From an uncultured bacterium (GTDB lineage Bacteria; Cyanobacteriota; Vampirovibrionia; Obscuribacterales; Obscuribacteraceae): a stretch of DNA of 64,000 nt. Positions 10,403 through 56,452 of the stretch are shown one piece after another. A program made the translations under genes and the position numbers. The DNA lies in assembly GCA_903835185.1 (NCBI GenBank), contig CAILLX010000067.1:58256-122255 (forward strand), in the 5' to 3' direction. Each line of letters starts with the position of its first letter. Within the stretch, counting starts at the first letter, position 1. Under the pieces are notes generated by a model. It did no database searches. It saw nothing but the letters and a program-made list of their open reading frames with translations, and was not told the DNA's origin.

Positions 10403-11410
10403 TTGATAAGTGATAAGCGCAAAATTATGGATAACAATCGCAAAGTAGTCCCGTTGGAGTTTGAGCAGCCACTCTCATTGCTGTCCCAGCAGATTGATGC
10501 GCTCGAGAGGCAGTTGGCTGACAATCCGCATGTGGAGCTGGAGGCTGATATTGTGCAGCTGCACGAACAGTACATTCAGCTCAAACGCTCTCTCTATGCC
10601 AATCTGCGTCCTATTGATCATCTGGCAATTGCCCGTCATGGGCAACGACCGTATACGAGGGATTATTTCGAACGGTGGGATCCAGACTGGATTGAAATTC
10701 ATGGTGACAGACATGGTGCAGATGATCAGGCCATGGTTGGCGGGTTGCTCTGTATGGGTGACATCAATGTAGTTGCTGTCGGGACTCAAAAAGGCAGGAA
10801 TTTGCGCGACAAGCAGCAGTGCAATTTTGGCATGCCGCAGCCGGAAGGTTACAGAAAAGCTCTGAGACTTTTTGCTCATGCCGATAAATTTGGCTTGCCT
10901 CTTGTCTGTCTTATCGATACTCCTGGCGCATATCCTGGCATGAACGCTGAAGAGCACAATCAAGCGCAGGCTATAGCTATGAATCTACGTGAGCTCGCTC
11001 GGCTTTCAGTACCGGTGTTGGCAGTGATTACAGGTGAGGGCGGATCTGGCGGAGCTTTAGCCATTGGAGTAAGCAACCGTATATTGATGTTGGAGCACTC
11101 AGTCTATTCAGTAATTTCGCCGGAAGGTTGTGCTTCAATTTTGTGGCGCTCAGCTGACAAAGTAGCAACAGCATGCCAGTCGATGAAAATGACAGCTCGC
11201 GAGCTGCTAGCGTCCGGAATCATTGAAGAGGTTGTCGAGGAGCCGTTAGGCGGGGCACACTGTGACTATGATCTGGCTGCCAGGAAGATTAAAGAAGCTA
11301 TTGTCAAGCATCTGAATTTATTGATGAAACTTTCGGCAGCTGAGCTAAAACAACAGCGTTTTAGCAAATACCGCAAGATAGGATGCTTTACTGAACTGCC
11401 TGTCTGTTGA
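10403..11410 (+). CDS. accA: Acetyl-CoA carboxylase carboxyltransferase subunit alpha
   Basis: RPYTRDYFERWDPDWIEIHGDRHGADDQAMVGG, DTPGAYPGMNAEEHNQAQAIA, GEGGSGGALAIGV. Start may be ATG 10427. Confidence 0.95.
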   Translation: MISDKRKIMDNNRKVVPLEFEQPLSLLSQQIDALERQLADNPHVELEADIVQLHEQYIQLKRSLYANLRPIDHLAIARHGQRPYTRDYFERWDPDWIEIHGDRHGADDQAMVGGLLCMGDINVVAVGTQKGRNLRDKQQCNFGMPQPEGYRKALRLFAHADKFGLPLVCLIDTPGAYPGMNAEEHNQAQAIAMNLRELARLSVPVLAVITGEGGSGGALAIGVSNRILMLEHSVYSVISPEGCASILWRSADKVATACQSMKMTARELLASGIIEEVVEEPLGGAHCDYDLAARKIKEAIVKHLNLLMKLSAAELKQQRFSKYRKIGCFTELPVC

Positions 11411-51513: not shown

Positions 51514-54500
51514 CTAAATCTCCTCAGGAGTGGCGATATCTTCTTCACTGTCATCGGGGGCAAATTTCTCTTCCTCCTCTTCCAGTTCGAGACCTGAGAC
51601 AGCTCTTCCTTCAGTGACAGTAACAGCGGCCGAAGGGACAAGCGGTTGTCTGCCTAGTTCGAGCAGTTCGGACTCAATGCCGATCTCTCCAAATGGGCTC
51701 ATACGTTTCATCCCGCGTGGACGGACTTCTTCCACCTCAGTCATAAGGTCGACTTCCATCTCGCCGCCTTCACGGGTACGTTTGGCGACTGAGACATCAA
51801 GTCCTATTGATTGCAGTTCACGGACCAGAACTTTGAAAGATTCTGGGATGCCTGGGCGTTTGAGATTCTCTCCTTTGACGATTGATTCGTAGGCCTTGGA
51901 ACGGCCGTTAACATCGTCAGACTTGATGGTGAGCATCTCTTGCAATGTGTAAGCACCACCAAAAGCTTCCAGCGCCCAGCACTCCATTTCTCCTAAACGC
52001 TGTCCGCCAAACTGAGCTTTTCCGCCTAGTGGCTGTTGGGTCACAAGAGAGTAAGGTCCTGTTGAACGGGCATGAATCTTATCGTCAACCAGGTGGACTA
52101 GCTTCATCATATAGATGCGGCCTATTGTCACTGCATTGTCGAAAGGATCACCTGTACGTCCGTCAAAGATGATAGCTTTGCCGCTGTCTGCGACCCAGTC
52201 AATGTTTGCGTGCTGTTTGCCTTTCCTGATTTCAGAGTGAACCAACTTGGAGGAGGCTTCCTTCTCGTACATTTCGTCGAAAGGAGGCACTTCATAACTC
52301 AATCCGGTGAGCATGGCTGCCAGACCCAAAAGAGTCTCATAAGTCTGTCCGACGTTCATACGGGAAGGGACACCCAGCGGATTAAGAACTATATCCACTG
52401 GTGTACCGTCAGGCAAGAATGGCATATCTTCTGGCGGCAGGATGCGGGCTACAATCCCTTTGTTGCCGTGACGTCCAGCACATTTGTCACCTACGCTAAC
52501 CTTGCGCTTTTGAGCAATATAAACACGGACGACTTTGTTGGCAACAGGTGGCAGTTCGTCTCCCTTCTCGCGATCGAAGACTTTAACGTCGACTACTCGA
52601 CCGCCTTCACCATGAGGCACGCGCAACGAGTTGTCGCGCACGTCGCGTGCTTTTTCACCAAATATGGCGCGGAGAAGCTTCTCTTCAGGCGGGTGCTCAG
52701 ACTCGCCTTTAGGTGTAATCTTACCCACCAGGATGTCGTCTGGATAAACGCGCGAACCGATACGCACGATGCCGTTTTCATCAAGGTGTCTTAACGACTC
52801 TTCTGAAACGTTAGGCACTTCGCGGGTAATTTCTTCAGGACCGAGCTTAGTGGAGCGGGCGTCAATTTCAAGCTTTTCAATATGGATTGACGTCAGGATG
52901 TCGTCATAAACCAGCCTCTGACTGATAAGGATTGCATCTTCAAAGTTGTATCCTTCCCAGGGCATAAAGGCTACAAGCAGATTACGTCCGACAGCCAGTT
53001 CGCCATCTTTAGTAGCTGCTCCGTCAGCAATAACCTGACCAGGTTTGACTGTGTCACCAACTGCCACAATCGGTTTTTGATTCAGGCAGGTGTCCTGGTT
53101 GGAGCGCTGAAACTTAGCCAGTTTGTACTTAATCAGCCTCTTGTCTTTGGCTCTGACATGGATAGCATTGCCAGAGACATACTCAACCGTGCCGTCGATG
53201 TCAGCTACAATCACCATCCCGGAGTCTCGTGCAGACTGTTTTTCTATGCCGGTTGTAACCAATGCCCGCTCTGTTTGAATGAGCGGAACTGACTGCCGTT
53301 GCATGTTAGAACCCATGAGTGCCCGGTTAGCGTCGTCGTGCTCCAGGAACGGGATAAGAGCTGTTCCGACTGAGACAATCTGAATTGGCGAGACGCCTAC
53401 ATAGTCCACGTGATCTGGTGTTGTTTCAATAAACTCAGACTTATAGCGAACTGGAATTAGTTCAGTTAAGAACTTTCCGTCTTCAGCAACCGGCACGTCA
53501 CCTGGTGCAACGCGGTAGCGGTCTTCTTCGTCAGCTGAGAGATAGTGCACTTGATCTGTACATCTGCCGCCAACAACCCGGCGGTAAGGTGTTTCTATAA
53601 AGCCGTATTCGTTGACACGGGCATGAGTGGCTAATGAGCCGATAAGACCAGCGTTAGGTCCTTCAGGAGTTTCGACAGGACAGATGCGTCCGTAGTGGCT
53701 GGGATGGATGTCGCGTACGGCAAATCCGGCCCGCTCCCTCGAGAGACCGCCAGGTCCTAGAGCTGACAGACGTCGTTTATGAGTCAATTCAGCTAACGGG
53801 TTGGTCTGATCCATGAATTGAGAAAGTTGCGAAGAGCCGAAGAACTCTCTGATGGCAGCAACCAACGGTTTAGTGTTTAAAAGGTTGGCTGGTGTAAGTG
53901 TATCGGCATCTTGCAGAGTCATGCGCTCGCGCACAATCCGCTCCAGTCGGGAAAGACCGATACGGAACTGATTTTGCAGCAGCTCGCCTACTGAACGGAT
54001 ACGACGATTGCCAAGATGGTCGATGTCATCGACCTGCCCTTCATCATAATTAAGACAGATCAAGTAGTCGACAGCAGCAACAATATCTTCTCTGGTTAAA
54101 GTCCTCTGAGCTTCAGATACTGAAAGGCTGAGCTTCTTATTCAACTTATAGCGACCGACCTTACCCAGGTCATAACGCTTATCGTCAAAGAAGCGACTGT
54201 CTATTATGTTCTGACCGCCTGCTACAGATGGCGGGTCGCCTGGTCTGAGCTTGCGGTAAACCTCAATGAGAGAGTCTTCGCGCGATTTAGTATTGTCTTT
54301 TTCAAGAGTCTTCTTAAGGAAGTCGCGGTGGCGGAAGATGGTCTCCATCTCCTGATCTGAATAGCCAAGGGCACGCAGGAGAGTTGTGGCTGGTAGCTTT
54401 CTATTTTTGTCTATCTTTACATAGATAATGTCATTGACATCAGTTTCAAATTTGAGCCAGGCGCCGCGGTTGGGAATAAGTGTAGCGCTGAAAGTTCTCT

Positions 54501-54969
54501 TTCCGTTAGCGTCGACTTCGCGCTTATAGTAGATGCCGGGGCTGCGGACAATCTGACTTACGATTACTCGTTCGGCGCCATTAATAATGAATGTGCCGCG
54601 GTCGGTCATCATTGGAATGTCGCCGACATAAATCTCTTGTTCTTTAATCTCGCCTATATCGCGGTTGACTAAACGCATCTGAATGCGAAGCTTCTTAGTG
54701 AAGCTGGCGTCCATAGCCCGGGCGTCTTCAGGCGTTTTAGGCTTGTTTGGTTCGGTGTGGTCGTCGAAGGTATAACTGGGCAGGAAGTGAAGCTCGAGTC
54801 TGCCTGTATAGTCGCGAATCGGACTGAAGGCGCGAAGCTCTTCGCCCAGTCCTTCGTCTATAAACCATTTGAAGGAACTCTTCTGGATTTCGGCAAGGTC
54901 TGGAAGGTTGGCGATACGAGAACTGCCGACCCCGAAGGTTCGGAAGCGCTCAGATAGTTCTAAAGCCAT
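51514..54969 (-). CDS. rpoB: RNA polymerase beta subunit
   Basis: 1151 aa; [78 protein letters not shown]. Confidence 0.99.
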
Positions 54970-55244: not shown

Positions 55245-55341
55245 GGGGATGGAACATTGCTGGTGTGGTGCTCGGTCTTCAAAACCGCTATGGGGCAGCT
55301 AGACGCTGTCCTGGGTTGGTTCAATTCCAACGTATCCCCGA
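55245..55341 (+). tRNA. selC: Selenocysteine tRNA, anticodon TCA
   Basis: Acceptor GGGGATG/TATCCCC; anticodon region CGGT-CTTCAAA-ACCG with TCA at 55279-55281; long variable arm GGGCAGC...GCTGTCC; T-arm GTTGG-TTCAATT-CCAAC. Outside protein-coding genes. Confidence 0.88.
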
Positions 55342-55384: not shown

Positions 55385-56452
55385 TTGTTCTATTTAATGT
55401 TGAAAGCCGGACAAATTACATTTGGCTTAATGCATAAAGTGCTTTACAAACTTTATAAGCCGCTTATAATAAACCTGTTAACCGAACTATACAAACTAGA
55501 AAGGCGGCTTGCTTTGAGTTACCAACCAGGAGCCCTGGTCTGGCTAGATCAGTTTGCAGGCTATCTTGAAGTAGAACGCAATTACTCAACTCATACAATC
55601 AGAGCTTATATGAATGATCTTAAGCAGCTGATTGGTAGCGAAGAGGTGCCGGAGAGCGGCGGCACTGCTGCCAGCCTTGAGTCTGGACCACAGTCCGGCT
55701 GGCTGGAAGCTGAGCAGCTGAGAAATTACATCCATTCTATACAGGATAGATATAGCCGCCCCACCATGGCACGCAAAATTTCAGCTATAAGGACTTTCTG
55801 TCGCTATCTAAGGCGCGAGCAGATTATTGAAGAAGATCCGTCCAAGACTATGCAAGGTCCCAAGTTGGGGCGGAGACTGCCTCCTTGTCTCGATCGTGAT
55901 GAGGTGGCCCGCCTTTTCATGGCGGCAGACTCAAACTCAATTGGAATTAGAGACAGAGCAATCATGGAAACTCTTTATGCAACTGGCATGAGAGTGAGCG
56001 AACTGTGTGGTCTTACTGTTGCTGATTACAATGGACAGACGATGGAGATTCGCTGTCTTGGCAAAGGTTCTAAAGAGCGCATAGTTTTGCTTAACCAGAG
56101 TGCTAACGCCTGGCTGAAGAGATATCTTGGTGAGCACTGGTCGCGCCTTGCTGGCACCGGTCAGCCAACAAGTGATTCACCGCTTTTTGTCAGCCGTGAG
56201 GCTACTCCGCTGTCCACCAGGTCGGTACATCGGATTGTGCTTAAATACGCCAACAAGGCAGGTATTAACAAAGTAATTACACCGCACACTTTGCGCCATA
56301 CTTTTGCTACCCACCTTCTAGAAGGCGGAGCTGACTTGCGTGTTGTGCAAGATCTGCTCGGGCATTCAAGCATAAGCACAACCCAGATCTATACACATGT
56401 GAGTTTGGAGCGTCTGCGGAGTATTTATATGTCAAGCCACCCGAGAGCTTAG
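55385..56452 (+). CDS. Tyrosine recombinase (XerC/XerD-like)
   Basis: Core-binding YSTHTIRAYMNDLKQL; catalytic ATGMRVSELCGL, TPHTLRHTFATHLLEGGADLRVVQDLLGHSSISTTQIYTHV. Real start probably the TTG near 55517. Confidence 0.95.
   Translation: MFYLMLKAGQITFGLMHKVLYKLYKPLIINLLTELYKLERRLALSYQPGALVWLDQFAGYLEVERNYSTHTIRAYMNDLKQLIGSEEVPESGGTAASLESGPQSGWLEAEQLRNYIHSIQDRYSRPTMARKISAIRTFCRYLRREQIIEEDPSKTMQGPKLGRRLPPCLDRDEVARLFMAADSNSIGIRDRAIMETLYATGMRVSELCGLTVADYNGQTMEIRCLGKGSKERIVLLNQSANAWLKRYLGEHWSRLAGTGQPTSDSPLFVSREATPLSTRSVHRIVLKYANKAGINKVITPHTLRHTFATHLLEGGADLRVVQDLLGHSSISTTQIYTHVSLERLRSIYMSSHPRA

Follow-up and report, generated by a model that had tools for sequence, protein, structure and literature searches.

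The DNA analyzed here, which we refer to as the window, comprises 64 kb (C67:58256-122255) of a 4.35 Mb assembly that is split into 243 contigs, is 85% complete and has a bin contamination of 4.5%. The window contains a gene for tRNA-Sec (selC), flanked by a divergently oriented rpoB and by a gene for a tyrosine recombinase (Table 1). This selC is a true, vertically inherited gene: It is orthologous to that of 16 other genomes of the same family, and in all cases in which both flanks are present in the data the gene lies between rpoB and xerC. The nearest sampled relative is genome G020, whose rpoB and xerC are 95% and 84% identical to those of the window. An earlier note, made from the letters of the window, had proposed a Melainabacteria-type genome, and this assignment is sustained: rpoC is split in two genes, which is the cyanobacterial arrangement, and the named loci of the selenoprotein of the relatives described below stem mostly from Candidatus Obscuribacterales/Melainabacteria MAGs. 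The Obscuribacterales are a non-photosynthetic sister lineage of the cyanobacteria.

Table 1. Features of the selC locus (window coordinates).
Feature	Position	Strand	Details
tRNA-Sec (selC)	55245..55340	+	95 nt + discriminator G73, CCA not encoded; Rfam RF01852, ortholog alignment, pair counts
Acceptor stem, 5' strand	55245..55251	+	partner 55333-55339, 7 bp; seventh pair G.U in this genome only
G8	55252	+	faces G at 55332; G.G mismatch at the eighth position of the acceptor
D-arm	55255..55270	+	6-bp stem, 4-nt loop TGGT
Anticodon arm CGGT-CTTCAAA-ACCG	55273..55287	+	
Anticodon TCA (reads UGA)	55279..55281	+	
Long variable arm GGGCAGC-TAGAC-GCTGTCC, 7 bp	55293..55311	+	
T-arm, 5 bp	55315..55331	+	third pair U-A here vs G-C in most relatives (compensated)
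Discriminator G73	55340	+	G in 19/19 aligned tRNAs
rpoB, divergent upstream neighbor	51514..54969	-	Pfam RNA_pol_Rpb2 domains; adjoins selC in relatives too
xerC-type tyrosine recombinase, downstream neighbor	55385..56452	+	Pfam Phage_integrase; adjoins selC in relatives too

Identity and Fold of the tRNA

Within the 64-kb window, the Rfam model RF01852 matches positions 55245-55339 of the plus strand (model positions 1-91) with 62.3 bits and an E value of 2.9e-10, which is about 15 bits above the gathering score of 47 bits. Genes for tRNA-Ser(UGA) of other orders of this class reach only about 47 bits with this model, and for this reason the match is not a tRNA-Ser. Like other bacterial tRNA-Sec of RF01852, the molecule combines the UCA anticodon and G73 with a long D-stem (6 bp, 4-nt loop) and a long variable arm. 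In an alignment of the window tRNA with 18 orthologs (96 columns), 95.4% of the cells of the cloverleaf are paired (slid controls, 41-58%), and both sides have changed in 13 pairs, a number that was matched by none of 500 shuffles. We conclude that window 55245-55340 (+) is a genuine tRNA-Sec gene, as the earlier note had claimed on the basis of the long variable arm and the anticodon TCA; the anticodon hairpin CGGTCTTCAAAACCG that it had given is exact.

ARAGORN, which calls tRNA-SeC in all six orthologs tested, did not call it in the window (the sole miss of seven), its RF01852 score is the lowest among 20 selC genes, and its six private substitutions are the highest count of the 17 family members. 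These private changes include the G.U at acceptor pair 7 and the compensated U-A in the T-stem. As 29 of 31 pairs are intact, the tRNA is no pseudogene by structure, which suggests that the loss of selB described below is recent. A mismatch at 28-44 in the anticodon stem was dismissed as a mark of decay, because this pair is missing in the nearest relatives too. A plasmid search with the window tRNA as query gave no match. Separately, G020 carries a tRNA-Cys (GCA) with a tRNA-Sec-like fold (L028:2997-3096, G020:C17), which scores 54.9 bits with the tRNA-Sec model and which, as far as the tRNA itself goes, resembles the selC* tRNA-Cys listed from other phyla in a 2020 review (PMC7609411).

The Eighth Acceptor Position

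The window tRNA differs from bacterial tRNA-Sec (RF01852) in its acceptor/T arm: Instead of a 13-bp helix with an 8-bp acceptor (8+5), it has 7 bp, a G.G and 5 bp. The earlier note had recognized both the 7 bp and the poorly formed eighth pair, yet the latter turns out to be a trait of the lineage rather than a defect. Position 8 is a G facing a G in 16 of 17 same-family tRNAs (the exception, G021, has A-U), a distribution on which we rejected decay as its cause; in the tRNA-Sec of the second family of the order the position is G-C. Since 14 of the 15 orthologs with the G.G form belong to genomes in which SelB was found, and the form thus occurs alongside a full Sec system, we regard it as a variant of the bacterial 8/5 fold that belongs to this lineage. 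An 8-bp acceptor is typical of bacteria but not universal, with published exceptions (PMC5330540), and other 12-bp acceptor-arm variants have been published from other phyla (PMC5330540, PMC7609411); in the literature we found no report of a tRNA-Sec with G.G at the eighth acceptor position.

The selB Locus

selC is present in 17 of 24 same-family genomes, the window's included, and in all three genomes of the second family. SelB was found in 16 same-family and three second-family genomes, and SelA and SelD accompany selC/SelB in the relatives. Moreover, the location of selB is fixed: It directly adjoins dedA in each of the 19 relatives that possess it, and the order in G020 is degT-lpxA-M-g125-selB-dedA, where g125 is a 125-aa gene of unknown function. 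In the window genome, a single contig (C234) carries degT-lpxA-M-g125-dedA in the same order without selB. The gap between g125 and dedA, where selB is expected, measures 153 bp; 5' of dedA, part of the sequence is conserved in G020 (17-base exact match), and no remnant of selB was found at this locus. C234 correlates with the window in tetranucleotide composition (0.92), its genes likewise have their nearest relative in G020, and close copies of dedA, lpxA and degT were found nowhere else in the bin. selB is cleanly absent from an intact locus, and its absence is not an assembly gap.

A SelB profile built from eight same-family proteins retrieved from the window genome only EF-Tu, IF-2, CysN and similar GTPases: The match on C66 has a CysD-like gene next to it and is read as CysNC, that on C114 is EF-Tu, and that on C23 reads as IF-2. 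SelB, the hallmark of a functional Sec trait, is missing from the assembly as well as from its conserved locus, and we infer that the unassembled part of the genome holds no relocated selB.

SelA, SelD and the Use of UGA

SelA was sought in the window genome, also with a same-family profile, and gave no match. In the relatives, selA and tuf are 2-3 kb apart, on either side of rlmB. The bin's only tuf contig is C114 (G000:C114, L035), whose EF-Tu is 65% identical to that of the family compared with 87-90% among the relatives, and whose tetranucleotide correlation with the window is 0.49; C114 is a foreign contig in the bin. rlmB yielded only a 28% match in the window genome and the gene beyond selA none. 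As the only EF-Tu is foreign and these neighbors lack a close match, the true tuf-rlmB-selA block is unassembled, which makes the absence of SelA uninformative and leads us to reject a loss of selA as unproven. SelD, the further component of a Sec trait, is intact (C35, 373 bits). We do not take it as a sign of Sec use, however, because the genome also encodes a selenouridine synthase (TIGR03167, 326 bits), whose presence explains SelD. The earlier note had seen no selA, selB, selD or ORF with in-frame UGA in the window, and our searches of the 64 kb for these genes and for TGA-interrupted ORFs likewise found none. Extended to the assembly, the check on the three genes gives a divided answer, with SelD present, SelB absent and SelA not found for want of its block.

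TGA makes up 35% of the stop codons in the window genome, and UGA is consequently an ordinary stop here; general UGA suppression by the UCA anticodon was rejected on this ground. A de novo scan of 0.99 Mb, or 23% of the genome, showed no TGA ORF resembling a selenoprotein; the interrupted ORFs comprise 6 with TGA, 8 with TAA and 10 with TAG, which is no excess of TGA. A large repetitive ORF (823 + 552 codons) on the minus strand of G000:C12 has an in-frame TGA in its middle (L281:15485), which is without a redox motif and looks like a nonsense change or a sequence error. FdhA was rejected as the selenoprotein, since the window genome has no FdhA and that of the relatives has no in-frame TGA. 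Conserved TGA ORFs near sel genes, picked out by codon-position statistics, were dropped since they are mostly antisense frames of rpoB and others. The GxTUSA[GA]NSLR family of the relatives is absent from the window genome assembly; this is weak evidence because two Sec-positive relatives (G008 and G021, both with SelB, SelA and selC) are without it as well.

A Candidate Selenoprotein Family in the Relatives

A coding-potential scan of the relative G005 yielded one convincing TGA ORF (L104:10226-11440, TGA at 10571), which has more than 30 homologs across 18 genomes, with a maximum of six in one genome (family loci: L104, L125-L154 and L155-L234). In nearly all of these >30 copies there is exactly one in-frame TGA, and in 80 of 80 named loci, including records of Planctomycetota and Armatimonadota/Fimbriimonas, it occupies the active-site codon. 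One paralog in G010 (L329) has TGT there and represents a Cys homolog. The family is marked by the motif GxT-U-SA[GA]NSLRAVSLS and by a C-terminal helical region. Its distribution follows that of the Sec machinery: All 18 genomes with the family have selC or SelB, and none of the genomes without both has the family. On the 3' side of the UGA lies a hairpin, GAGAGC-CGUGUC-GCUCUC, at 21-38 nt; its loop occupies nt 27-32, counted from the U of UGA. Identity at codons +8 to +11 is 100, 100, 91 and 90%, compared with a mean of 53% and a maximum of 73% for other conserved residues; wobble changes are present among the hairpin pairs and double changes are not, such that the case for this SECIS is one of synonymous-site constraint rather than covariation. 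Given a conserved UGA with coding sequence on both sides, a Cys homolog and a downstream SECIS hairpin, we regard the relatives as carrying a candidate new selenoprotein family.

An AlphaFold model (pLDDT 88.7) places Sec at the predicted start of the first active-site helix, and Foldseek returns DsbD-gamma/AGR/DsbH-type thioredoxin folds with modest significance (best E 0.005); the family is thus modeled as thioredoxin-fold, and an N-terminal signal-like stretch, judged by eye, suggests that it is probably secreted. Searches of Pfam, NCBIfam and PDB sequences gave no credible match, and the motif is not present in a 2026 selenoprotein catalogue of 119 families (PMC13188914). The nearest named match is the VPGUxxT family (NF041382/NF041383), likewise thioredoxin-like (seleno)proteins by name, but the best E value is only 0.025, in three of 22 members, and the motif differs. 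Three family members also weakly match the selenoneine synthase SenA model (E 0.00033), possibly through a helical segment. A distant homolog (L330, G010:C79:10500-12500) has a Cys-Sec motif, LDKEFC-U-TNAQLART, at the corresponding site and is possibly a second Sec-containing type.

Discussion

We consider it probable that the window gene is an orphan tRNA-Sec left after a recent loss of selB. An ancestor within the family would have decoded UGA as Sec using SelA, SelB, SelD and this tRNA; in the window lineage, selB would then have been deleted between g125 and dedA, after which Sec-tRNA could no longer be delivered to UGA codons, and SelD would have been kept as the supplier of the selenouridine synthase. 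With selB missing from its site, the organism has probably lost the synthesis of selenoproteins, and we infer that the tRNA is now without function. The claim of the earlier note that the organism decodes UGA as Sec is thus probably wrong, given that SelB is gone from both locus and assembly and that SelD is otherwise explained; the evidence points instead to the relic that the same note had named as its alternative. The following count against an orphan: The tRNA shows no visible breakage and its T-stem change is compensated, which fits either a very recent loss or continued selection, and at about 85% completeness in 243 contigs a relocated selB could be unassembled.

The latter possibility leads to the least implausible of the alternatives, in which the Sec system still works and selA, selB at a new position and the genes for selenoproteins reside in the ~15% of the genome that is unassembled. 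The structural integrity of the tRNA with its compensated change, the presence of SelD and the missing selA-rlmB-tuf block, which deprives the absence of SelA of its weight, all agree with it; selB, however, must then have left the place it holds in 19 of 19 relatives and also have escaped assembly, with the old locus intact, and we judge this unlikely. If the intact fold and the compensated change were instead maintained without a SelB partner, the tRNA may have been kept for another job, for instance reading UGA with a serine charge and EF-Tu as its carrier, or in a non-translational role. The 8-bp acceptor form is bound poorly by EF-Tu (PMC7609411), and the 7-bp acceptor, G.G and G.U seventh pair are nearer to an elongator tRNA than that form. 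The G.G, however, is also found in relatives that keep SelB and selenoproteins and is hence no adaptation to the loss of SelB; moreover, TGA is not depleted as a stop, nor are TGA-interrupted ORFs in excess, which renders such a role improbable. Least probable of all, and hardly to be expected, is a binning or assembly artefact by which the selB-less C234 or the window contig would come from another organism: The bin is contaminated to some degree and one foreign contig, C114 with its EF-Tu, was identified in it, but C234 and the window agree in composition where C114 does not, share G020 as nearest relative, and C234 supplies the only close dedA, lpxA and degT copies found. We therefore retain the orphan tRNA-Sec as the preferred explanation.

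A comparable state has been described in Yersinia pestis CO92 and Mediaevalis, where the Sec trait was recently lost through selB and selC and selD remain (PMC1273633). As there, selC and selD outlast selB in the window genome; in Yersinia pestis, however, a frameshift has made selB a pseudogene and selA is still present, whereas here selB is cleanly absent and the selA block unassembled. The window genome also has both genes of the SelD + selenouridine synthase (YbbB/MnmH) trait, in which the extra selC has no role. A 2006 survey reported no Sec trait in Cyanobacteria (PMC1794560), and we found no literature joining selenocysteine or selenoproteins with Obscuribacter or Obscuribacterales in a search that covered few subscription papers.

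Taken as a whole, it is very likely that the window tRNA is a remnant of an Obscuribacterales Sec system and that the relatives use this system, whose tRNA-Sec has a conserved G.G where the acceptor meets the T-arm, for secreted thioredoxin-fold proteins of an uncatalogued family, which has expanded in the lineage and almost always contains Sec in place of Cys. The genes of this candidate family would be cut at the UGA by a standard gene caller, and a high-scoring tRNA-Sec alone is no proof of selenoproteins. How SelB and EF-Tu discriminate tRNA-Sec from other tRNAs is a question to which the conserved acceptor G.G is relevant. In the window genome, an expansion of the genetic code has apparently been caught in the middle of its dismantling: The delivery factor is gone, the tRNA looks intact, and nearby genomes have the system in full.
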